Shown: positions 24,346-36,601, counted from the first letter of the stretch. The stretch: 39,025 bases of DNA from Candidatus Galligastranaerophilus intestinavium (GCA_018716625.1 DVJQ01000071.1:1-39025); one strand, 5' to 3'. The notes: generated from the sequence alone by a model not told the origin. Program-made: numbers and translations.

Positions 24346-25095
24346 TTGATTACAAGAAAATCTCGTGAAGAATTAAAACTAATGCGCCATGCAGGTTCGA
24401 TTGTCGCCCTTGTGCATCAGGAGATGAAAAAAGCTGTTTGTGAAGGAATTTCAACATATGAGCTTGATCAGATTGCTTCAAAAATAATAAGGGATAATAA
24501 AGCAATTCCTACATTTTTAAATTACCATGGTTATCCTGCATCTATTTGCACTTCGGTTAACGAGCAGGTTGTACATGGAATCCCCTCAAAGGATATTGTT
24601 TTGCAGGCGGGCGATATTATATCAATCGATGTTGGTGCAACTTATCGAGGGCTTGTAGGTGACAGTGCTTGGACCTATCCTGTGGGGGAAATTTCTCAAG
24701 ATAAAAAAATGCTTTTAGAAACTACCGAAAAAGCCTTAATGGCAGGTGTTTCAAGGATGATTAGCGGCAATTTATTGGAAGAAGTTTCGGCAGCCGTAGA
24801 GGATGTTGCACTCTCAAAAGGTCTTGGAATTGTACGCCAGTACGGTGGTCATGGCGTTGGCAGAAATATGCATGAGGACCCCTTTGTATTTAACTACCGC
24901 ACAGGCAATAAGACAGTGTTAAAGTCAGGGATGACAATTGCAATAGAGCCTATGTTGAATTTAGGTAAGGACGATGTCTACGTTTTGGACGATGATTGGA
25001 CTGTTGTAACTGCAGATGATATGGCTTCGGCGCATTTTGAGCACACAGTTTTAGTAGGCGATGACGGGCCTGAGATTTTAACAAAGTTAAGTTAG
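24346..25095 (+). CDS. map: methionine aminopeptidase type I, TTG start
   Basis: Removes the initiator Met from new proteins. The five metal ligands are all visible: Asp95 and Asp106 (SIDVGATYRGLVGDSA), His169 (GGHGVG), Glu201 (IEPML) and Glu232 (FEHTV). The start is TTG at 24346: AGGGA lies 8 bases upstream, the adk stop blocks a longer frame, and the next ATG would delete the conserved KSREELKLMRHAG start. At 249 residues it has the standard length without a zinc-finger extension. Its 3' end overlaps the convergent nuclease gene by 9 bases. Confidence 0.96.
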   Translation: MITRKSREELKLMRHAGSIVALVHQEMKKAVCEGISTYELDQIASKIIRDNKAIPTFLNYHGYPASICTSVNEQVVHGIPSKDIVLQAGDIISIDVGATYRGLVGDSAWTYPVGEISQDKKMLLETTEKALMAGVSRMISGNLLEEVSAAVEDVALSKGLGIVRQYGGHGVGRNMHEDPFVFNYRTGNKTVLKSGMTIAIEPMLNLGKDDVYVLDDDWTVVTADDMASAHFEHTVLVGDDGPEILTKLS

Positions 25096-25674
25096 ATATT
25101 TTTTTGGCAGTTTGTCTATTACTTTTGTTATACTTTCAAAATAGTTATTTTCTTTTGAAAAGTTTACTGTAAGAAATTCTGTTTTTTCAAGCGAATAGTA
25201 ACATATTGATATGTTTTGTGTCTTGAAAATTTTTGAGCCGCAGTAAAGATAAACTATGCTTTGCAGGTCGCACTCGGGGCTTTTTGGTATGTTTTTTGAT
25301 TTCCAATCATAGATTATATAGTTGTCTTTATCCTGAAAAATAGCGTCAAATCTGCCTGTCAGATAAAAGTTGTATCCTTTGTGTGTACATTTTACAAGGA
25401 AATTTTCCTCTGATTTTATAAATTTTTCTTTGTTTTTAAAAATTTCATCTCTTAAAACTTTTTCAAGCAGCTCTTGTTCAATTTTTGGCATGTTGCTTTT
25501 AATTTTTGTTATGTCAAAACCTTTGATGTAGTATGAAATCATTGCGTGCAGGCGCTCTCCGCGTTTTGCACTTTCATTTTTGTTTAAAAAATCAAGCTGT
25601 AAAATATATCGGTTGATAAAATTTTCAACATTTTCATCAAGCACTTTGAGTGAATTTGCGCTAAAAGTGTTCAT
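25087..25674 (-). CDS. stand-alone PD-(D/E)XK nuclease, RecB/AddB C-domain-like
   Basis: Predicted DNA exonuclease. The 195 residues follow the RecB/Cas4-like nuclease pattern: His43 in RGERLHAMI, Asp110 in LTGRFDAIF, Asp123 and Lys125 in YDWKSK, and the QxxxY motif DLQSIVYLY (Gln138, Tyr142). There is no Cas4 cluster of four cysteines, and no helicase part in this ORF. Its ATG overlaps the stop of the 1255-residue double helicase gene (ATGA), so the two are translated together and very likely form one complex, with this protein giving the nuclease normally fused to AddA/AddB/RecB. There is only one nuclease, unlike AddAB, which has two. Confidence 0.85.
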   Translation of the reverse strand: MNTFSANSLKVLDENVENFINRYILQLDFLNKNESAKRGERLHAMISYYIKGFDITKIKSNMPKIEQELLEKVLRDEIFKNKEKFIKSEENFLVKCTHKGYNFYLTGRFDAIFQDKDNYIIYDWKSKNIPKSPECDLQSIVYLYCGSKIFKTQNISICYYSLEKTEFLTVNFSKENNYFESITKVIDKLPKKYLT

Positions 25675-28600
25675 CTTGCCTCCTTAATGTTAAAAATTTC
25701 ACTAGGTTCGATACTTTTTTCTTTTTTGAATATTTTGTAAGTTTTTGCACAACTCAATAAAAGCTTGGTTTTTGCCCTTGTAATGCCTACATAAAGCAGT
25801 CTGTAGTTTTCTTCAAGTATTTCTTGTTTTAGTGTTTCACTGTCTTTGGGGTTTGGTTTTAGCGATTCAATAAGCTCCGTATTTTTCTTTAATTTTATGT
25901 CGTCAAGTTTTAGCCCCATATTTTCGCTGTTTAGCTCGGGTATAAAAACAAAGTCAAATTCGTCACCCTTAGCTTTATGCATTGTCATAATCCTTATCGC
26001 GTCTGTTTTTTCTTCGTCTTTTGTGAAAAATTTTACGCTTTTGTTTGCTCTTTCTGATATTTCATTTAAGCGGTTTGTCATCTCCTCAAAAGAGTTGTAG
26101 GATTTTAAAATTTTTTCTGCTATGGAATAAACCATTGATATATTTGCAAATTCAAGTGTGTTTTTAAAATAATAATCCCCAATTTCAAAAATAAGCTCAA
26201 GAGGATTTGTTGTGCTCTTTAGTAAAAAATACCTTAAATCCCACCATAGCGAATATTTTGAAAAATAATCGCAGAGGAAATCTTTTTCTTCTATTTCGAC
26301 TAAAATTTCTCTTTCATCTTGATATTGTTCAATTTCAAGCATAGTTTCAATGCTTTTTTTGATATTTTTTTTGTTTCTTGTGTCATTTATAAAATTAAAT
26401 ACAGCGAGCACAACTCTAAAAACAGCGTTGTTGTTGAGTGTATCTGTGGTTTTTTCGTATTTAATGTTTTTACCCTCAAGAAATTCACCCCATTTTAAAA
26501 CTTGCCAATTGCTTCTGAGCAGTATCCCAATACTTTTATCGGGATGTTCGTTTTTTATTTTTTTAATTTCACTTACAATATAATTTTTCTCATCCTCGCT
26601 TTTTTCAAAGACCTTAAACTCTACCCCGTCAGTGTTTGTTGGGTTTTTGCCTTCGACAGGCTGCATTTTTATGTTTAAAAAAGCCTCAGGTGCAAACTTG
26701 TGTGCTTCATCAATTGTCTTGTTTGCCAGTTCGATAATTTTCAACCCGCACCTTTGTGATTTGTTCATTTCAACATTGTAATTTTCTTTTATAAATTTTT
26801 TAAACCCTCTGACATCAGAATTTGAAAAAGTCGCGGTTATTGCCTGATTTACATCTCCGCACCTTATTATATTTCCGTATTTTTCACCCAAAACAGTTAT
26901 TAATTCCTGTTGAATGGGGGATGAATCCTGCGCTTCATCCTCTATTATAACTCTGCACATGTTCTGATAGTAATTGCGCACATCAGAGTTACTCTTTAGT
27001 AGTTTTAAGGCGTAAGTTAACAAATCGTCATAGTCAAGAAAATTATTTTCTTTCATAAAATTATTGTAAGAGCTGTAAATCCTTTTAAAGCTTGGGCTTT
27101 TAACTTTTTCAAGCTGTACAAGGGAGTTTTTAAAGTCGCTTATTGCTCTTTCGTACAGTTCTGTTTTGTCGTAATCGAGTCCCGAGTTTACAACTGATGT
27201 CATAATCAACTCGCGCCTTTTTATTTCGTCAATAATTTCAAAATCATTGTCAATATTTAAAAAGGCATAGTTATTGTTTTCTTTTAAGATTTTAAGTGCA
27301 AGCCCATGAATAGTCGAAATTTGGGGTAATTCCACCATGTTTGGATAATTTTGTTTTATTCTTTCTCTGAAATTTCTTGCTGCTGATTCCATAAAAGTCA
27401 ACACAAAAATATTTTCGCTCTTTAGGTTTTCTATAACATCTCCCTCAAGCAATTTTAATATTAATGCAAGCATAATGGTTGTTTTGCCTGAGCCTGCAAC
27501 GGCGCTTACTGCCATTTTTCCCGATTTATATTCAAGTACCGGTCTTTGATCGTCGCGCGGGGTTATTTTTTTTGCGAGATTTGTTTTTATATTTTGTTCC
27601 GATTTAAAAAATTTGTCCGTTGCGCCAAAATTTTCAACTCCCAAGGTATCATAAATGCTTGAATATACATATATTTTTTCATCGGAGCACAAAAAGAGTT
27701 TGTATAAAATTCTTGCTGTCCTGTCAAGCGTCAATTCCAAGTTGTCATTTGGCTCAAATGTGCTTTTGTTCCAGTTTTTCTGAAAAACCCAAGAATTGTA
27801 AAGCATTCCTATGTCTTGTTTTATCCAGTCGGAGTTCGAACAATCAAGTAAAAACAGATGTTTTACATTAATTTCATTGTCTATCAACTTTTGGGCACTT
27901 GCAACAATTATTGAACTTTGCGGTATTTCATCTTCGCTTAGGGGGTTTTCCGATATTATTGTATTTTGCAGTTGTTCAATAAGGTTTATTTTTTCAAAAC
28001 CGTTCTCAAAAACTTCCTCAAAATCGTTTATTTGTTTTGCAAGTTTGTTTAACTTTAAAATGGAGCTTTGATTTTCAATGTTTTTTTCTACATATTTATT
28101 GCAAATTTCAAAAAGCTGTCCGCTTAAATTTTGCTCTTTTATTTTTTCGCAAAATTCAAGAAAGTCTCCTATTTTCTCATTTTTTTGCTCTTTTAAAAAT
28201 TCTTTTACGGGTTTTCTGTACAAATAATTTGCCTCGCGATAAAGCTGGGTAAGTTCTATTGCTTCGCTTGGAGTAAGTTTTAAAATTTCAATAAAAATTG
28301 ACTTTAGTACAAAAGGGCTTAAATATGTATCAACTATATTTGCAAGTTTTAAAATCTCTATTACTGTTGAAACAAGCGGGTTTTGGTTTAGTTTTTCGCT
28401 GCCGGAGAGAAAAAACACATCTTGTTTTATTTTTTTAAAGCAAAAGCGCAAATAATCATCCGTAAGCGGTGTTACAACTGCAATGTCAGAGGGTTTTACG
28501 CCGTTTTTAATAAGGGTTTTAATTTCTTCAACGGTGTTAAAAATCATTTCATCTCTGCGAATAAAACTTTTGACTATAGTGTTTTTTTCGCAAAATACTT

Positions 28601-29438
28601 TTTTGTTTTTAACGCAATCAAAAACTCTTTTTGCAATTTTTAATTTTTCGCTATTTTCCCTTAAATCAATTGGTTTTTGTTCTAAAAATTTTTCAAAGTC
28701 AACAATTGTTGCACTTAAATAGCCAAGTCTCGATGAACCCAGAGGGTCTTGTGCTATGAAAAATTCCCTGATTTCATCTTTAATGTATTTTAAATATTCA
28801 AAAACAACCGGCGTAATTTCGTCCCCGTCGTCTAAAATTACGTAGCGGTAAGGGTTTTTGGTATTTTTGTAAAGATATTCAAAAATATTTACTTGTCTTA
28901 AATAGTCAAAAGCCCTAAATTCAAGAGTTTTTAACTTGTATAAATTAATTGCCTCCCTTGCCTCATTTGCGTAGGACTCATTTAAAACTTTTTCGCGTTT
29001 CTTTATTTCATCCTGATTCAGTGCATTTTGTACAATTAAGGAGTAGCGCCTTAAAAGCTGGTGCAAAAGGTTTACTTTAGAATTGTAGCCCTTAAATTCC
29101 ACCTCTTTTATGCAATTTTTAAAAATGTATTGCGATACTTCAAGTCCGCACAGGTGCGCAAAGACTGTGGAGTTGGGGTTTTTTATGTTATTTTCAACAA
29201 GTGCCCAGTTTTTTTCCAAAAAATTCCTTGTAAGTCCAAAAAAGCTAAATACATTTAAGTTTCCGATGTTGCCTGTTTGAGATTTATTTTTGATTTTTTC
29301 CGTAAAATTTTTCTTTTTTCTTCCGTTTTGAACAAGCACGAGAATTTCCTCGGGCTTTGCGCCCAAGTTTACAAGATTGAAAAATTTTTCAACAAGTATA
29401 TCTGTTTTGTTTGAATTTATGGTTGAATAAAATATCAT
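25671..29438 (-). CDS. AddB-AddA-like fused superfamily 1 helicase
   Basis: Likely double-strand-break-processing motor. The C-terminal half (about 630-1255) is a complete UvrD/AddA-type helicase: Walker A AVAGSGKTT (about 643-651), TFMESAARNFRERI, Walker B IIEDEAQDSSPIQ (about 834), GDVNQAI, MTMHKAKGDEFDFVFIP, and LLYVGITRAKTKLLL (about 1218). The N-terminal half (1 to about 620) also looks like a helicase of this fold but degenerate: its P-loop position reads STINSNKT, and segments such as DIAVVTPLTDDYLRFCFKKI and LVSTVIEILKLAN resemble AddB. Thus one chain seems to join an inactive AddB-like module to an active AddA-like motor, without nuclease; the next gene supplies that. It overlaps priA and the nuclease gene by 4 bases each. 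Confidence 0.82.
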   Translation of the reverse strand: MIFYSTINSNKTDILVEKFFNLVNLGAKPEEILVLVQNGRKKKNFTEKIKNKSQTGNIGNLNVFSFFGLTRNFLEKNWALVENNIKNPNSTVFAHLCGLEVSQYIFKNCIKEVEFKGYNSKVNLLHQLLRRYSLIVQNALNQDEIKKREKVLNESYANEAREAINLYKLKTLEFRAFDYLRQVNIFEYLYKNTKNPYRYVILDDGDEITPVVFEYLKYIKDEIREFFIAQDPLGSSRLGYLSATIVDFEKFLEQKPIDLRENSEKLKIAKRVFDCVKNKKVFCEKNTIVKSFIRRDEMIFNTVEEIKTLIKNGVKPSDIAVVTPLTDDYLRFCFKKIKQDVFFLSGSEKLNQNPLVSTVIEILKLANIVDTYLSPFVLKSIFIEILKLTPSEAIELTQLYREANYLYRKPVKEFLKEQKNEKIGDFLEFCEKIKEQNLSGQLFEICNKYVEKNIENQSSILKLNKLAKQINDFEEVFENGFEKINLIEQLQNTIISENPLSEDEIPQSSIIVASAQKLIDNEINVKHLFLLDCSNSDWIKQDIGMLYNSWVFQKNWNKSTFEPNDNLELTLDRTARILYKLFLCSDEKIYVYSSIYDTLGVENFGATDKFFKSEQNIKTNLAKKITPRDDQRPVLEYKSGKMAVSAVAGSGKTTIMLALILKLLEGDVIENLKSENIFVLTFMESAARNFRERIKQNYPNMVELPQISTIHGLALKILKENNNYAFLNIDNDFEIIDEIKRRELIMTSVVNSGLDYDKTELYERAISDFKNSLVQLEKVKSPSFKRIYSSYNNFMKENNFLDYDDLLTYALKLLKSNSDVRNYYQNMCRVIIEDEAQDSSPIQQELITVLGEKYGNIIRCGDVNQAITATFSNSDVRGFKKFIKENYNVEMNKSQRCGLKIIELANKTIDEAHKFAPEAFLNIKMQPVEGKNPTNTDGVEFKVFEKSEDEKNYIVSEIKKIKNEHPDKSIGILLRSNWQVLKWGEFLEGKNIKYEKTTDTLNNNAVFRVVLAVFNFINDTRNKKNIKKSIETMLEIEQYQDEREILVEIEEKDFLCDYFSKYSLWWDLRYFLLKSTTNPLELIFEIGDYYFKNTLEFANISMVYSIAEKILKSYNSFEEMTNRLNEISERANKSVKFFTKDEEKTDAIRIMTMHKAKGDEFDFVFIPELNSENMGLKLDDIKLKKNTELIESLKPNPKDSETLKQEILEENYRLLYVGITRAKTKLLLSCAKTYKIFKKEKSIEPSEIFNIKEAR

Positions 29439-31453
29439 AATATGTCAGTAGGATCGACATCCACAGTCATTTTAATTTCTTTGTGCAAACTTATTCTCCT
29501 TAAAAAACCAAGTACTGTGTCATGCCCTTTTTGTCCGAGTTTATTTTTTATAAGAATATTGTAGCGGTACTCTCCCCTTATTTTTCCTATTACGCAAGGA
29601 ACTGGGCCAAGCGTGATTATTCTTTCATCAAGTGAGAGTTTTTTTATGTAATTTTCAAGATGCGCAGCTATTTCCACACAGGCATGCTCTGCCATAAAGT
29701 CCTCGCTTGAGCTTATGATTATTCTTATTATTTTTGAATAAGGGGGGTAATCGTACTCTTGTCTTAGTTCTTTTTCTTTTTCAAAAAAGCTCAAATAATC
29801 CTGTTCTTTTGCTTTTTGCAAGAATAAATTGTCAGGGTTGTAAGTTTGAAAAATTACTTTGCCTTTGTGTTCTCCTCTGCCTGAGCGTCCCGCAACCTGT
29901 GTCAAAAGCGAAAAGCCGCGCTCCGAGCTTCTGTAGTCGGGCAAATTAAAACTTAAATCTGCGTTAATTACCCCGACAAGCGTTACATTTGGGTTATCCA
30001 GACCCTTTGCAATCATTTGAGTGCCTATTAAAATATTTATTTCGCCCTGTTGAAATTTTTGTAAAATTTCTATGTGTTCGTTTTTTGTATTCAGACTGTC
30101 ACTGTCAAGACGTGCGATTGTCATATCACTAAAGATTTTTCTTGCTATTTCTTCAACCCTTTGTGAGCCTGTGCCGAAATTTTCAAGTTCTTCGCTCGAA
30201 CACTTTGCGCATTTTGCCGCTTTTGTTTCATAACCGCAGTAGTGGCATTTGTATGAATTTGTTTGTGAGTGGTAAATTAAGGGTATTGCACATTTTTTAC
30301 ACTCCAGAACTTCTCCGCATTCCATACATTGAGTATAGCTTGAAAAACCGCGCCTGTTTATTAGGAAAATAACTTGTTCGCCACGCTCTACGGTTTGTTT
30401 GGTTTTTTCAACAAGCGTACGAGAAAAAATCCCCAAGTTGCCTTCCAGCCTTTCACTTTTCATATCAATTATGCTTACATCGGGCAATTGGGCATTGTTA
30501 TATCTGTTTTTTAGTTCAAAAAGCGAATTTGTGTTTTGTGCCTCCCAAAAACTTTCCACATCGGGAGTTGCGCTGCCTGAAATAATTTTAGCGCCATAGA
30601 GTTGCGCCAGTTTTTTTGCAACATTTTTTGCGCAATACCTCGGGTTTGGCATGGTTTGTTTGTAACTTGTGTCGTGTTCTTCATCGATTATAATAAGCCC
30701 CAAGTTTGCAATTGGTGCAAATACTGCCGAGCGTGCACCAAAGAGAATTTTTATCTCATTTTGTCTTAATCTTTGCCATACGCTGTATTTTTCTGCCTCT
30801 GAAATGGATGAGTGCCATATGGCAACGTTTTGCGAGCCAAAGCGATTTATTGTGCGCATGGTGAGTTGAGATACAAGCGCAATCTCAGGTGCCATAAAAA
30901 GCACGTTTTTACCTTCTTTTATGGTATCTTCTATTAATTTAAAATAAATCTCGGTTTTGCCTGAGCCTGTAATACCCCAAAGTAAAGAGTTTTGAGCATT
31001 TACATGTTTTATTTCTTCATAAACTTTTTGTTGTTCATCGCTCAAATTATGCTCTATAAGCCCGCTTTCTTCTTTGAGAGCTGCGTTTTCTTTTTTTGGT
31101 TTTCTGTATTTTTTTACATTTTTTTCAAAAAACTTTTGAGGGAGTGCCGTTTTTAAAACTGTTGCAATGTCGCAAAAATAGTAGTTTGCAACCCACTCAA
31201 GCAGCTTTAAATACTCAATATCAAAAAGCGGTTCGCTCTCAAGAATTTCGTCTATATATTTTGCCTTAATACTCTCATCAAGGTAGTTTGAAAACCCTAC
31301 AACATAACCCTTTATTTTTCTTTTTGGCCCAAAAGGCACGCTGAGCGCCTGTCCGATTTTAATTTTGTCCTTAAAATCTTTGGGTATTAAATAACTGAAT
31401 GTTTTTGTACCGAGTTTTGCAACATCAACCAGTACAAGTGCATATTTATACAT
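29435..31453 (-). CDS. priA: primosomal helicase PriA
   Basis: Restarts stalled replication forks by loading the replicative helicase. The 672 residues have the N-terminal 3' DNA-binding domain (KTFSYLIPKDF, VPFGPKRKIKGYVVG), Walker A GITGSGKTEIY (about 159-169), DEEHD, GSATPD, and a zinc module between about 374 and 425 with paired cysteines (CMECGEVLECKKC, KCHYCGYE, AAKCAKCSS), then RIAGRSGRG-type and C-terminal domains. It starts right after the stop of the small exported protein gene (TAGATG), with AAAGG upstream, and overlaps the double helicase by 4 bases. Co-expression with polA and a recombination machine makes functional sense. Confidence 0.95.
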   Translation of the reverse strand: MYKYALVLVDVAKLGTKTFSYLIPKDFKDKIKIGQALSVPFGPKRKIKGYVVGFSNYLDESIKAKYIDEILESEPLFDIEYLKLLEWVANYYFCDIATVLKTALPQKFFEKNVKKYRKPKKENAALKEESGLIEHNLSDEQQKVYEEIKHVNAQNSLLWGITGSGKTEIYFKLIEDTIKEGKNVLFMAPEIALVSQLTMRTINRFGSQNVAIWHSSISEAEKYSVWQRLRQNEIKILFGARSAVFAPIANLGLIIIDEEHDTSYKQTMPNPRYCAKNVAKKLAQLYGAKIISGSATPDVESFWEAQNTNSLFELKNRYNNAQLPDVSIIDMKSERLEGNLGIFSRTLVEKTKQTVERGEQVIFLINRRGFSSYTQCMECGEVLECKKCAIPLIYHSQTNSYKCHYCGYETKAAKCAKCSSEELENFGTGSQRVEEIARKIFSDMTIARLDSDSLNTKNEHIEILQKFQQGEINILIGTQMIAKGLDNPNVTLVGVINADLSFNLPDYRSSERGFSLLTQVAGRSGRGEHKGKVIFQTYNPDNLFLQKAKEQDYLSFFEKEKELRQEYDYPPYSKIIRIIISSSEDFMAEHACVEIAAHLENYIKKLSLDERIITLGPVPCVIGKIRGEYRYNILIKNKLGQKGHDTVLGFLRRISLHKEIKMTVDVDPTDIL

Positions 31454-31822
31454 CTATAGTACCTTTTGAGGGATATTTTTAATATTTAAGTCAATAGTGT
31501 CAAAAATGGCTTTTTGTATTCCGGTACCTGAGGTAAAATCGCTGTTTGCAGGTAAAATCTTTATGCTTGAGCTGTTTGTACCTTCTTTTGAAACGGTTAC
31601 AATGTAGTTTTTGTTTAGTGTTTTAAACATTATGTACCCGCTTTTTGACTGCATTTCAATTATGTCATATTGTCCTGTGGAGTTAAGTGCGCTTAGCGTA
31701 AGCAAATATAAATTGTCCGCACTTACGGAGTAGTTTTTATTACAGCTTGAAAGCATTGACTCGTTTGCATTTGCGCTAAGCGAAAAAAGTATTAAAGTAA
31801 ATAATGTTAAAATTCTTTTCAT
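31454..31822 (-). CDS. small exported protein, unknown
   Basis: No family is recognised. The ATG at 31822 is chosen: AAGGAGAG lies just upstream and it overlaps the polA stop by one base (TAATG). The 122-residue product has a typical Sec signal peptide (MKRILTLFTLILFSLSANA) cleaved before NES, without a lipobox. The mature part (about 103 residues) is a small alpha/beta-looking domain with strands such as GYIMFKTLNKNYIVTV and SSIKILPANSD; it has one Cys. It should be periplasmic. Its place between polA and priA is odd for an exported protein and gives no hint of function. Confidence 0.8.
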   Translation of the reverse strand: MKRILTLFTLILFSLSANANESMLSSCNKNYSVSADNLYLLTLSALNSTGQYDIIEMQSKSGYIMFKTLNKNYIVTVSKEGTNSSSIKILPANSDFTSGTGIQKAIFDTIDLNIKNIPQKVL

Positions 31823-34488
31823 TACTCTCCTTCTCTCCAAGTTTTTGCACATTTTGTGTCGACCTTGAGCGGAACCCTAAGGGGCTGATTTAACTCCATT
31901 GCTTTTATTGTAAGTTCTTTTACTTCTTCAAGCTCGTTTTTTGGCACTTCAAGCACAAGTTCGTCGTGTACTTGAAGAATCATTTTTGATTTGTATTTTT
32001 TTAAATCATCGTGTAATTTTACCATTGCCATTTTAATTAAGTCCGCGCTTGTGCCTTGCAGCGGTGCATTTACGGCAGCACGCTGGGCAAATTCTCTTAT
32101 TTTTGCGTTTCTTGAGTTCAGTTCTGCACCCAGATACCTTTTTCTTCCGTAGAGTGTTTCTACATAGCCCTCCTGATGGGCTTCTATAAGGGTGTTATTA
32201 ATATAGGAGTTAATTTTTGGATATGTTGCAAAATATTTATCTATAAACTCTTGGGCTTCAAGCGGTGTTATCCCGAGAACAGATGAGAGTCCGTAGCGTG
32301 TTTGACCGTATATAAGTCCGAAATTTACCGCTTTTGCTTTTCTTCTCATTTCTTTTGTAACTTCTTCTTTTTTGACTTCAAAAATCTTTGATGCGGTAAT
32401 TAAATGTATGTCTTCGTCATTACAAAAGGCGTCTATGAGAACTTCATCTGCGGAAAAATGCGCCAACAATCTTAGTTCAATTTGTGAGTAATCAGCAGAG
32501 AGAATGTAAGAATTTTCTCTGTCTGTAGGCACAAAAGCTGCTCGAATGCGGTTTGAAAACTCTGTTCTTGTAGGTATACTTTGCAAATTAGGGTCAGAGC
32601 TTGAGAGTCTGCCTGTGGTTGTTACTATTTGGTTAAAATGGGTGTGAATTTTGCCGTCATCTTTTATTAGTTTTGGCAAGTTATCAATATATGTTGTTTT
32701 AAGCTTCATTAGCTGTCTGTGCTCTAAAATATCTCTTGCAATCTGGTGTTCAAGCGCAAGTTCGTCAAGAATTTTTGCCGAGGTTGAAAAGCCTGTTTTG
32801 TTCTTTTTTGACGGTTTTATTTTAAGAGTATTAAAAAGTATCTCGGAAACTTGTTTTGGAGAATTTATGTTAAAAGTTGTGCCTGCCTGATTGTAGATTT
32901 TTTCTTCAAAATTAAGTATTTTTTCGTTAACTTCCAGACTCAGCGTTTTTAAGTAATTAACATCAAGGCTCACCCCTGTGTCCTCCATGTCTTTTAAAAC
33001 ATATGCCAAGGGCAACTCAACTTTATTTATCAGATTTTTTTCTTTTTCATTTAATGAGTTTTGGTAAAACTCATATAAGCTTAAAATATTTCTTGTCAGC
33101 TTAAAACCGTCGTTTTCATCCGGCATGAAATTCAGATAATTTTGTATTTGCGAAACTATATCATGTTTTCTTGAGGAATCTTTAACGTAGCTTGTTAACA
33201 TAATATCCGATATTACGCCTTTTGGGTTGATGTAATTAAGCTCATTTTTAATATCATATACAACTTTTTTTATGTTTGGATTTTCAAGAATTTCAATGAC
33301 CTTATTGTCGTCTTTTTTTACAAGTGCGCAAGTATTATTTTGAGCCAGATAAAGGGAGTTTGGCATTTGGGGTAAAATGGCGCTCAGTGCAATAATATCA
33401 CCGTCTTTTATATTATTTAAAAACTCATAATACTCCTCTTGGCTTGTAAGTTTTGTAATTTCTTCATCCTCTTTTTGTTCTTGATGAAAAAGCCCGAGCT
33501 GGACTTGGGTTTGTGCTTGTTCGTCTTTTATTGTTACAAAATTTTCCGCTTTGGTTTCTGTGCAACTTGTCTCAAAAGGTGCGAGCAATTTATCTATATT
33601 TTTTACAAAGCTGTAGAACTGAACACTTTGGAAAAAGTCTGTAACGGCTTGCTTGTTTGGTATTTCAAGGCAGGTTCGAGAAAAGTCAAAATCAATTTCA
33701 ACATCTCTTTTAATTGTTGCCAAAAATTGCGACAAATACGCCATTTCTTTTTGTTCGATAAGTTTTTCTTTTATAGCTTTTTTTGTTATGTTTTCAATAT
33801 TTTCATACACGCCCTCAAGTGTTTTGTATTCTTGCAAAAGCCATTGAGCTGTTTTTGCACCAATACCTTTTACTCCGGGGATGTTGTCGGAACTGTCGCC
33901 GCAAAGAGCCTTGTAGTCTACAACTTGAGAGGGGTATACCCCTAAGTTTTCAAAAACTTCATCCCACCCCAGACAACTAAGCACGCCTTTTTGGGGAATA
34001 AGCACTTTTATTGTGCCTTCCTTGTCTACAAGTTGCAAGCTGTCTTTATCGCCTGTCAAAATATAGGTGTTATGCCCCATTTGTTTTGCTTTTGATGAAA
34101 TTGTGCCGATAATGTCATCGCCTTCAAAGCCTTCTTTTGTGTAAATTGGTATATTGAGGGCTTTTAGTCCTTCCATTATTAAAGAAAGTTGCGAGCGCAA
34201 TGTATCAGGCATGGTTTGTCTGTTTGCCTTGTAATCTTGGTATTTTTCGAGCCTGAAAGTGTGTCTTGAGACATCAAAGGCAACAGCAATGGAGTTTGGC
34301 TTGATATCGGCTCCGCCTTTTGAGGATGATGAGAGCAAGTCAAAAATTGATTTAAAAAACCCGTAAATTGCCCATGTAGGTTGATGTTGCGTTGTTTGCA
34401 TATTGGTACGCTCAAGCGCAAAAAACATCCTGAAAGCAAGCGCATGTCCGTCTATCAGTATTAGAGTTTTTTTATCCTCGCTCCTCAT
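31822..34488 (-). CDS. polA: DNA polymerase I, probably without proofreading
   Basis: Fills gaps and removes RNA primers. The 888 residues have an N-terminal 5' nuclease domain (1 to about 290, LILIDGHALAFRMFFA, YKANRQTMP, GDSSDNIPGVKGIG), a 3'-5' exonuclease-like domain (about 340-500), and the polymerase domain with motif A DYSQIELRLLAH (about 671), motif B RRKAKAVNFGLIYG and motif C QVHDELVLEV (about 842). The exonuclease-like domain lacks the DxE metal site (IIALSAILP at its place), so proofreading seems lost, as in Taq and Bacillus enzymes. AAAGGTGGGAT precedes the ATG. It lies in the long pnp-to-nuclease gene string. Confidence 0.95.
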   Translation of the reverse strand: MRSEDKKTLILIDGHALAFRMFFALERTNMQTTQHQPTWAIYGFFKSIFDLLSSSSKGGADIKPNSIAVAFDVSRHTFRLEKYQDYKANRQTMPDTLRSQLSLIMEGLKALNIPIYTKEGFEGDDIIGTISSKAKQMGHNTYILTGDKDSLQLVDKEGTIKVLIPQKGVLSCLGWDEVFENLGVYPSQVVDYKALCGDSSDNIPGVKGIGAKTAQWLLQEYKTLEGVYENIENITKKAIKEKLIEQKEMAYLSQFLATIKRDVEIDFDFSRTCLEIPNKQAVTDFFQSVQFYSFVKNIDKLLAPFETSCTETKAENFVTIKDEQAQTQVQLGLFHQEQKEDEEITKLTSQEEYYEFLNNIKDGDIIALSAILPQMPNSLYLAQNNTCALVKKDDNKVIEILENPNIKKVVYDIKNELNYINPKGVISDIMLTSYVKDSSRKHDIVSQIQNYLNFMPDENDGFKLTRNILSLYEFYQNSLNEKEKNLINKVELPLAYVLKDMEDTGVSLDVNYLKTLSLEVNEKILNFEEKIYNQAGTTFNINSPKQVSEILFNTLKIKPSKKNKTGFSTSAKILDELALEHQIARDILEHRQLMKLKTTYIDNLPKLIKDDGKIHTHFNQIVTTTGRLSSSDPNLQSIPTRTEFSNRIRAAFVPTDRENSYILSADYSQIELRLLAHFSADEVLIDAFCNDEDIHLITASKIFEVKKEEVTKEMRRKAKAVNFGLIYGQTRYGLSSVLGITPLEAQEFIDKYFATYPKINSYINNTLIEAHQEGYVETLYGRKRYLGAELNSRNAKIREFAQRAAVNAPLQGTSADLIKMAMVKLHDDLKKYKSKMILQVHDELVLEVPKNELEEVKELTIKAMELNQPLRVPLKVDTKCAKTWREGE

Positions 34489-34513: not shown

Positions 34514-35344
34514 TTAAAAATCATCCTTTGTAATCAGTTTTGTATTATTTAATATTTTTACCTCAAAATTTCCACTGTTTGAGCCGCTTTGTTCTGTTAT
34601 AGCTCCCTTTGATAAACACTCACCTTGATTAGCTGAGTATATTTTTATGTAGTTTGCAATATTTATGTCACTGTTTTCGCTGCAAGTTCTTGAAAAATCA
34701 AATTTTGCTTCATTAGAACATACAAGATAAAACGAGTTTGCACCTACTGTGGTTTTATAGCTGTTAACATTTGCTTTGCAGCCTATGTCTTGCCAGATGA
34801 ACTCATTATTATCATCTTTTATCCCTGCAAAAATAAAATATCCGTCAGGGTTTGCATCGGTTATAACTTCTATTTCGTCAGAATTTTTGTCTGTAATAAT
34901 GCTGTCTGATTCAACAATATCTTCAAAATTTATATTTTCTTGAATTTGTTCGTATGTTTGGGCATAGGAGTTTGCCTTAATTTTTATATTTTTAAGACCT
35001 GCAAATCTTAGAAAATATGTCGGTAATTCAAGTTGGGCTTCTATTTTAACCTTTTTTTCTCCGCTTTCTTCTTCTTTGTAATATACATTTAGCAATTGTG
35101 CGTCTTTTAGAGTGTCAAATTCAGCTTTATATAGACTGAAGTACTTTTTGCTGTAGTCCTGTGAGTTTTCTTTGTATTTTGCAATACTTGCAAGTGCTGT
35201 TGTTTCGACTGCACGCTGCAATTTTACTCTGTTCATTGTTACAAAAGCCATGTCAATTGCAAATGCACTAAATACTATAAAAGAAAAGCAAAATACTGCA
35301 ACTAAAATTGAAACATTTGCACGTTTTTTATTAAGTTTAATCAT
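34514..35344 (-). CDS. TadG-like pilus-assembly/surface protein
   Basis: The N terminus matches TadE/TadG-type proteins: a basic start, one membrane helix (about 11-33: VSILVAVFCFSFIVFSAFAID), and then MAFVTMNRVKLQRAVETTALASI, the usual pseudopilin-like helix with an Ala-rich patch. About 240 residues follow outside the membrane, predicted as beta-rich with a Cys-rich C-terminal part (four Cys between about 190 and 252). TadG has a VWA domain in many species; none is visible here, so this is a short version. It overlaps the TadE-like gene by 4 bases (ATGA). A role in a Tad/Flp pilus or another surface structure is inferred; no TadA, TadB or Flp gene is in the window. Confidence 0.65.
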   Translation of the reverse strand: MIKLNKKRANVSILVAVFCFSFIVFSAFAIDMAFVTMNRVKLQRAVETTALASIAKYKENSQDYSKKYFSLYKAEFDTLKDAQLLNVYYKEEESGEKKVKIEAQLELPTYFLRFAGLKNIKIKANSYAQTYEQIQENINFEDIVESDSIITDKNSDEIEVITDANPDGYFIFAGIKDDNNEFIWQDIGCKANVNSYKTTVGANSFYLVCSNEAKFDFSRTCSENSDINIANYIKIYSANQGECLSKGAITEQSGSNSGNFEVKILNNTKLITKDDF

Positions 35345-35907
35345 GTTTGCGGGCTTTCTTCATTTTGCTGGGCAGTATTTCTATAGTCAGTAAAATCATT
35401 TGCAAGATTAGTATCGGTAATATTATAAGAATTTGGCAAAAAGAGTGCTTTGTTTGATATAACTATGCTCTTGAAATGAAACTCATCCGGTATTGCTCCA
35501 AAAAATGTATTTACAAGGGTGAAAGCATATGTATAAGTGTATGTTGCAACACTTATCGTGAAATCTTCCACTTCAAAAGTCTGAACCTTTACTGTGTCGG
35601 AGTACGGAACTTTTCTTGAGGCGAGAATTTTTCGAGTGTTGTCTTGTATTTCTTTTGATATGTCTTTGTAAGAGGAGTTGTTGTTATTTCTGTATATGCT
35701 TGAGGCAGCCCCTACTGCACGATTTAGCGCACTGTTAAGCTCAATCCCCGCGTTTATTCCGTAGCCTATTTCGCTTAGCAGTGCAATTATTCCGACTAAA
35801 AAAGGAAAAAACAAAACAAATTCAACAAGATGTTGAGCCTTTGAGCGTTTTTGCCCAAAGGCTTTAAAATCTTGTTTATTTTTAATCGTCGTCTTCTTGA
35901 ACTCCAT
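35341..35907 (-). CDS. TadE-like pilus-assembly protein
   Basis: The 188 residues carry the TadE pattern: after a basic start, QHLVEFVLFFPFLVGIIALL is a membrane helix with the conserved Glu-Phe near its beginning, followed by EIGYGINAGIELNSALNRAVGAASS. The rest is extracytoplasmic and ends in an Asn/Gln-rich tail. TadE-like pseudopilins support Flp pilus assembly. The ATG at 35907 lies within the lipoprotein gene (26-base overlap) with AAGGG only 2 bases upstream, a tight spacing. It probably works with the TadG-like protein next to it. Confidence 0.7.
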   Translation of the reverse strand: MEFKKTTIKNKQDFKAFGQKRSKAQHLVEFVLFFPFLVGIIALLSEIGYGINAGIELNSALNRAVGAASSIYRNNNNSSYKDISKEIQDNTRKILASRKVPYSDTVKVQTFEVEDFTISVATYTYTYAFTLVNTFFGAIPDEFHFKSIVISNKALFLPNSYNITDTNLANDFTDYRNTAQQNEESPQT

Positions 35908-36601
35908 TACCCTTAACCATAAAGCTGTATGACAAATCTTTATAGGTTACATTAATCGGGTATACCCCGGGGTCTTTTAAGAAAAGGTAAAAGAATTTAT
36001 TTTCTTTAGGTTTAACTACTGCTGCCGTATTTATTGTATGTTGGCTTATGCCTTCAACAACAGTACTTATTTGTTTGTACGCTCCGTCACTTGATGATAC
36101 GCTTGTGGTTTCAGCAATAGGGTTTGTTTGGTTTAAGCGTTGATAATTGTTTGCAATATTTGCAATGTTGCTTAGTGTGCCTGAGGCTTGTGACATTGAA
36201 GCAAGCGCACCTGCTTGTGAACTTTGGTATGCCCCCAAATAGTTTGATGAGCTGATTAAGCTTATTGGGGTGTTGTTTGCGCTTAATTCAAAGTCTTTTG
36301 TATAAAATACGTAGTCATTTGCACTTGAGTTGTTGTTTATTTGAACATATGCAGCCAGTACATCAGGTACGGGGGTTTTTGAAATTCCTACCCGCATTGA
36401 AATATCTTCGCCTGCCGATGTTTTATTGTATGTTGAAAAATAAAACATTTCGTCAGTTTGGATGAGTGCCGAATTTTTTGCATCAAAATCCTCTCCGACA
36501 TAGGACAATGTTGAACAGCCGCCAAGTGCGAACGCGCTGAGTACTACTGCACCGAGCGTTAACATGGTTTTTTTCAGCCTATTGGCAATTTGCTTTTTCA
36601 T
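35882..36601 (-). CDS. lipoprotein of unknown function
   Basis: No family is recognised. The 239-residue product begins with a lipoprotein signal peptide: MKKQIANRLKK, hydrophobic core MLTLGAVVLSAFA and lipobox LGGC (Cys29). The mature protein is about 210 residues: a beta-rich N-terminal part, a Ser/Ala/Gln-rich middle (about 120-165, YQSSQAGALASMSQASGTL), a second beta part, and an acidic C terminus (QEDDD). AAGGAG lies 9 bases upstream of the ATG, which is inside pnp (23-base overlap), and the 3' end overlaps the TadE-like gene. Context suggests a surface partner of the Tad-like proteins, for example a secretin-associated lipoprotein, but this is only a guess. Confidence 0.75.
   Translation of the reverse strand: MKKQIANRLKKTMLTLGAVVLSAFALGGCSTLSYVGEDFDAKNSALIQTDEMFYFSTYNKTSAGEDISMRVGISKTPVPDVLAAYVQINNNSSANDYVFYTKDFELSANNTPISLISSSNYLGAYQSSQAGALASMSQASGTLSNIANIANNYQRLNQTNPIAETTSVSSSDGAYKQISTVVEGISQHTINTAAVVKPKENKFFYLFLKDPGVYPINVTYKDLSYSFMVKGNGVQEDDD

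Follow-up and report, generated by a model that had tools for sequence, protein, structure and literature searches.

AddB-type nucleases, as established from AddAB, cut the 5'-ended strand of DNA. An ionic latch has been described in AddAB, and a wedge or scanner role has been assigned to its AddB subunit (PMC4824097). UvrD-type helicases also occur in single-chain UvrD-Cas4 fusions (pfam12705), and in Clostridiales operons that encode unfused UvrD and Cas4-like proteins (PMC5704561). The recBCD genes are poorly conserved in cyanobacteria (PMC5101192).

Here we describe a gene pair in a 39,025-nt stretch of DNA (the window) from Candidatus Galligastranaerophilus intestinavium (GCA_018716625.1, DVJQ01000071.1:1-39025). 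One gene encodes a fused double helicase, with its N-terminal and C-terminal halves denoted H1 and H2, and the other a separate nuclease, denoted N. A sequence-only reading of this DNA had taken the pair for a rearranged AddAB. On the computational evidence presented here, we think it probable that the pair instead represents, in fused form, a helicase-nuclease of three parts that is native to the Cyanobacteriota, resembles AddAB and AdnAB in its action and is a member of neither.

Gene layout and conservation of the pair

The minus strand of the window carries in succession polA (31822-34488), a small ORF, priA, the 1255-aa fused ORF and the 195-aa nuclease ORF (Table 1), opposed by a methionine aminopeptidase-like gene (judged by its sequence). 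Both ORFs and their ATGA overlap were found where the sequence-only reading had placed them. The 4-nt overlaps that join priA, the fused gene and the nuclease gene, together with the AAGGAGG preceding the nuclease, suggest that the three are translated together; the link to priA was observed in the window's genus alone. The pair stands behind polA and priA, and no defence neighbours were found in the window. Small TadE/TadG-like ORFs are arranged in series between polA and pnp (34514-36601).

Table 1. Positions of the genes, protein halves and motifs in the window.
Feature	Position	Strand	Basis or remark
priA, upstream of the fused gene, 4-nt overlap	29435..31453	-	
Double helicase with H1 fused to H2, 1255 aa	25671..29438	-	ORF, Pfam, orthologues
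H1, the N-half (residues 1-622), with inactivated UvrD fold	27573..29438	-	PF00580, AlphaFold, structure matches
Degenerate P-loop STINSNKT, residues 5-12	29403..29426	-	relatives elsewhere EGPxGSGKT
Motif II remnant DDGDE of N-half, residues 203-207	28818..28832	-	D206, E207 invariant
H2, the C-half (residues 623-1255), a complete UvrD-type helicase	25674..27572	-	Pfam, alignment, trees
C-half Walker A AVAGSGKT, residues 646-653	27480..27503	-	G649, G651, K652, T653 invariant
C-half Walker B EDEAQD, residues 833-838	26925..26942	-	invariant
C-half motif VI YVGITRAK, residues 1216-1223	25770..25793	-	Y1216, V1217, T1220, R1221, A1222 invariant
Shine-Dalgarno AAGGAGG (perfect, strong) of the nuclease, inside the end of the helicase gene	25679..25685	-	
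ATGA stop/start overlap of fused gene and nuclease gene, 4 nt	25671..25674	-	
Separate PD-(D/E)XK nuclease (N), 195 aa	25087..25674	-	PF12705 37.9 bits, alignments
Nuclease His43	25546..25548	-	invariant
Nuclease Asp110 (GRFDA)	25345..25347	-	invariant
Nuclease Asp123-Trp-Lys125	25300..25308	-	D123, K125 invariant
Nuclease QxxxY motif (Gln138-Tyr142)	25249..25263	-	invariant

The closest named relatives of the 1255-aa gene belong to Candidatus Gastranaerophilales, an order of the class Vampirovibrionia within the Cyanobacteriota. The fused gene is present in 53 of 58 related genomes and at 384 loci of a species-level collection, so that the ORF is not a product of chance, and the absence of the pair from relatives that the sequence-only reading had named as grounds for doubt was not found. 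The nuclease lies downstream at 35 of the 46 loci examined, and for nine of the remaining 11 it is encoded elsewhere in the genome. Nuclease and fused gene are inherited together: the former is encoded in 50/53 genomes with the fused gene, compared with 0/5 of those without it (Fisher p 1e-5, a value that ignores relatedness). The three genomes with a fused gene and no free nuclease are G018 (75% complete), G026 and G030. Both parts are missing from two genomes of at least 98% completeness, G022 and G037 (the latter having only a weakly matching nuclease fragment), and also from G184 (99% complete, with the nuclease searched by PF12705 only). Since the highly complete G022 and G184 lack both parts and encode a single-chain UvrD-nuclease, the system is dispensable.

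The two helicase halves and the nuclease

The N-half is genuinely related to UvrD, with a PF00580 match of 28-31 bits (cut-off 23) at residues 11-232, and AlphaFold modelled residues 1-622 with confidence (pLDDT 88.3, pTM 0.86), bearing out the view of it as a degenerate helicase-like half with STINSNKT in place of a P-loop. The best TM-score of this model is to AdnB (0.71), followed by AddB (0.67) and UvrD (about 0.60), while the Z-scores (VIA) are 28 for UvrD, 23.6 for AdnB and 21.9 for AddB, across residues 1-618, with 573 residues aligned to AddB. The rmsd values to AdnB (4.3 Å) and AddB (5.4 Å) are lower than those to most UvrD entries (about 10 Å), suggesting that the modelled domains are arranged as in AdnB and AddB. 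These whole-length matches to UvrD, AddB and AdnB were the outcome of a structural comparison that the sequence-only reading had proposed, and they left its fold assignment intact. The model thus points to an AddB-like inactivated UvrD fold, in which AddB is not singled out, UvrD and AdnB fitting equally. A PDB profile search with the N-half gave a weak Rep match alone (E 0.012), and no AddB match to it was found in NCBIfam.

The P-loop of the N-half has decayed to a variable extent across the window's order. An intact P-loop (EGPxGSGKT or similar) nevertheless occurs in several families of that order as well as in other orders, and most free homologues have one too, while the DE of motif II is retained. 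ATP binding by the N-half therefore looks ancestral, and lost in the window's lineage. In one relative (G025, L056:4261-8685), a DUF559 endonuclease-like domain is inserted in frame in the N-half (residues 288-395, E 4e-36); SPLEGE-like repeat peptides border this insert, and a similar repeat peptide is present in the C-half encoded on L053.

The C-half is matched by PF00580 (residues 630-884, 177 bits) and UvrD_C (residues 1096-1232, 92 bits), and its catalytic motifs are invariant in an alignment of 24 diverse relatives. It accordingly has the complete motifs of an SF1A UvrD-type helicase, in line with the complete UvrD/AddA-like half first noticed. It stops 32 residues past motif VI, and its Pfam domains are those of a helicase only. 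In a longer model, which covers residues 1-1200 only, the two halves were matched separately; its pTM of 0.73 is too low to judge the packing of the halves. In a tree of 44 proteins, the C-halves and the free H2 proteins of other classes (see below) form one clade with 100/100 support, and AddA/RecB, PcrA and the single-chain UvrD-nucleases all fall outside it. A further tree agrees in not grouping the C-half with AddA/RecB. The fused C-halves form a single clade inside the H2 clade (99/98), which shows one fusion event, in the window's class.

The 195-residue nuclease is matched by PF12705 at 37.9 bits (cut-off 22), and His43, Asp110, Asp123, Lys125, Gln138 and Tyr142, all of them noted in the sequence-only reading, are invariant in an alignment of 17 relatives. 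It thus carries the PD-(D/E)XK signature of the family (H, D, D-x-K and QxxxY). Its resemblance to Cas4 and AddB is weak. Most of its orthologues have cysteines arranged like those of the Fe-S site in AddB and Cas4, one being N-terminal and three C-terminal. These cysteines are gone in the window's genus and in G016 (g3) and G017 (g4), with the catalytic residues retained. The nuclease tree, built on a short domain with long branches, branches without resolution, and an AddB origin of the nuclease is therefore not claimed. Structures 9iab and 9iac, found as weak matches of the nuclease profile, were dropped because two photosynthetic N proteins gave no match to them.

A search of the window's own genome for AddA, AddB, RecB and RecC, of a kind also proposed beforehand, found no canonical form of any of them. 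The RecC family (PF04257) is absent from this genome, with a positive control in E. coli matched. The genome also encodes PcrA and a single-chain UvrD-nuclease, and no further PF12705 proteins were found in it. The single-chain protein (C52, L007:1939-4968) is a 1009-aa UvrD helicase with an Fe-S PD-(D/E)XK domain, of the UvrD-Cas4 kind, and belongs to a clade of its own in the helicase tree.

Unfused H1, H2 and N, and the alternative readings

Outside the window's class, the N-half profile run over the phylum found free ORFs of about 640-770 aa, and once these free H1 proteins were included in the profile, H1 was also detected in 11/12 additional genomes that had fallen below the first threshold (weakly in one of them). 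In 25/25 other-class genomes tested, profiles of the C-half and the nuclease detected both free H2 (680-890 aa in most cases) and free N (230-340 aa in most cases); all of these genomes have H1, and 22 of them were picked for having it. All counts given here refer to samples and not to exhaustive surveys. Among the proteins tested from photosynthetic members, H1 matches no Pfam or NCBIfam family. What we define as the H1-H2-N family of Cyanobacteriota requires that one genome encode orthologues of H1, H2 and N, and the window's pair belongs to it. With the three parts separate in the rest of the phylum, what is new in the window's class is that H1 and H2 are fused, and the sequence-only reading's picture of a nuclease freed from AddAB had to be given up.

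The three genes form H1-H2-N operons, each a single cluster, in early lineages (G202, G220 and G226), and H2 and N adjoin in G216. They are dispersed in genomes where H1 adjoins a gene of the CemA family, which is typical of oxygenic cyanobacteria; in photosynthetic genomes H1 is repeatedly divergent beside this gene (L190, L192, L193 and L195). Outside the phylum, the Salinibacter ruber plasmid pSR56 has genes for H1, H2 and N (matched at 342, 352 and 99 bits, respectively) in series with recJ, and the same H1-H2-N-RecJ order is found in L198. In G220 and G366, too, RecJ comes after N, and in G228 it lies beside H1, with RecJ adjacency seen in four contexts only. A system that runs unfused through the phylum and occurs on a Salinibacter plasmid is not the lineage-specific machine that had been envisaged. 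No phage or viral origin was found. On the Ilyobacter polytropus plasmid pILYOP01 lies the gene of a 657-aa UvrD-like protein (L184:7974-9947) with a nearly whole-length match to H1 (21-23% identity). It stands alone, with neither H2 nor a nuclease as neighbour, and is left as a distant relative. In G064 (L159:74-6327), a gene for an 828-aa protein directly precedes one for an AddA-type helicase-nuclease (1256 aa); the 828-aa protein was considered as AddB and rejected, being RecJ.

In a transposon screen in Synechococcus elongatus, RSF1010 transfer or maintenance as well as natural transformation increased upon loss of ago, cas4, uvrD, recJcy, rpoD2 or Synpcc7942_0992 (PMC10653904). Synpcc7942_0992 is a PD-(D/E)XK gene, and the uvrD of this organism has a separate paralogue, PcrA (PMC10653904). 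In the sampled genomes the main UvrD-type match other than H2 is PcrA-like, and S. elongatus uvrD is therefore probably H2; N is probably Synpcc7942_0992 or cas4. The shared phenotype of uvrD, recJcy and the PD-(D/E)XK gene fits H2, RecJ and N acting together. Because this phenotype is common also to cas4 and ago (PMC10653904), the system might be mainly a barrier to plasmids, transforming DNA and phages, like Gabija or Argonaute-linked nucleases, with break repair secondary. The plasmid-borne H1-H2-N-RecJ operon would agree with such a role, as would the GajB-like scores of the C-half in PADLOC, though these are common to any UvrD. We regard it as unlikely, however, for a system that is near-universal in the phylum and has no defence neighbours in the window; moreover, RecBCD and AddAB too restrict linear DNA of foreign origin, and the phenotype therefore does not separate the two roles.

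The origin first proposed for the pair was a true AddAB with its subunits rearranged, the AddB and AddA helicases having been fused, one nuclease lost and the other freed. In profile comparisons with equal-sized sets, the N-half indeed pairs with AddB (120 vs 50 for AddA), the C-half with AddA (330 vs 63 for AddB) and the nuclease with the AddB nuclease (110 vs 29 for AddA); the AddB structure matches the N-half across residues 1-618, and the window's own genome is without canonical AddAB. This profile pairing describes resemblance, whereas the trees bear on descent, and they place the C-half outside the AddA/RecB clade. The fused gene also coexists with canonical AddB-AddA pairs in other orders of the class (families f9, f14 and f15) and with an AddB-AddA-like pair in G030, a member of the window's own family, and unfused sets of the three genes range across the rest of the phylum, the fused form being one clade within them. 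What stands of the original proposal is a chain with two helicase modules, the first inactive, and a separate nuclease of the AddB/Cas4 type; its descent from AddAB we hold to be quite improbable. The pair of G030 (L151:2765-8852) consists of chains of 931 and 1125 aa, both ending in a nuclease domain; the fused helicase of this genome has no free nuclease beside it.

That the proteins act apart, as an accessory UvrD-like fork helicase and a Cas4-like nuclease that is its neighbour by chance, would suit the dispersed genes of photosynthetic genomes and of 11/46 fused loci, but is very hard to reconcile with their co-inheritance and co-loss, the ATGA coupling and the recurrent operons in distant groups.

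Proposed action and comparison with known systems

For the three-part helicase-nuclease that we prefer, we infer a physical complex in which H2 would be the sole live motor, of the SF1A type, expected to move 3'-to-5' along one strand from DNA ends. H1, predicted to keep the UvrD fold and to have lost its ATP site in the window's lineage, might hold, split or read one strand as AddB and RecC do, serving as a wedge or scanner in the manner of AddB. N would sit on the complex as its single nuclease and, as a member of the AddB/Cas4 type, cut the 5'-ended strand, possibly with the help of RecJ. The outcome would be either a 3' tail for RecA or the destruction of incoming DNA, and the role could accordingly lie in break repair, in a barrier to foreign DNA, or in both. 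Since there is no second nuclease, the complex may make 3' tails without a Chi-like switch.

The near-universal presence of the set in the phylum, as three largely unannotated genes, suggests that it is probably the phylum's own processor of broken or foreign DNA ends. The chances seem to us evenly balanced that H1-H2-N, often with RecJ, near-universal in Cyanobacteriota and fused in Vampirovibrionia, is another bacterial complex for processing DNA ends, alongside RecBCD, AddAB and AdnAB, and the missing end-resection machine of recBCD-less cyanobacteria. The proposal names three near-universal genes, including H1 with its lack of a family match in the photosynthetic members tested, predicts their joint action, also with RecJ, and offers a single explanation for several published transposon-screen hits left unexplained. 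It is testable in transformable model cyanobacteria, where look-alike genes limit DNA uptake and plasmid use.

Among the known systems, RecBCD likewise has an inactivated helicase subunit (RecC) next to a live SF1A motor (RecB), but its nuclease is fused to RecB, and the RecC family is absent from the window's own genome. The UvrD-Cas4 proteins share the partnership of a UvrD helicase with a Cas4/AddB-type nuclease. In contrast to their single-chain fusions, helicase and nuclease are here separate ORFs, and the helicase belongs to a different clade; no H1 partner is described for the UvrD-Cas4 types in PMC5704561, and the open-access literature yielded no published description of the H1-H2-N set. 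AdnAB resembles the fused protein in its tandem of UvrD-sized motors, and the N-half has its highest TM-score to AdnB, but AdnA and AdnB each combine motor and nuclease, whereas the nuclease here is free. With AddAB (RexAB) the set shares a single live SF1A motor, a single inactivated helicase fold, an AddB-type Fe-S nuclease and the presumed processing of ends. AddA, however, joins helicase and C-terminal nuclease on one chain and the C-half does not, and AddB joins an inactive helicase to an Fe-S nuclease, whereas the N-half continues into a second helicase. H2 falls outside the AddA/RecB clade, and both systems coexist in some genomes. AddAB thus consists of two chains, each with its own nuclease, while in the H1-H2-N family the motors lie on one chain or on two free chains, accompanied by one free nuclease.
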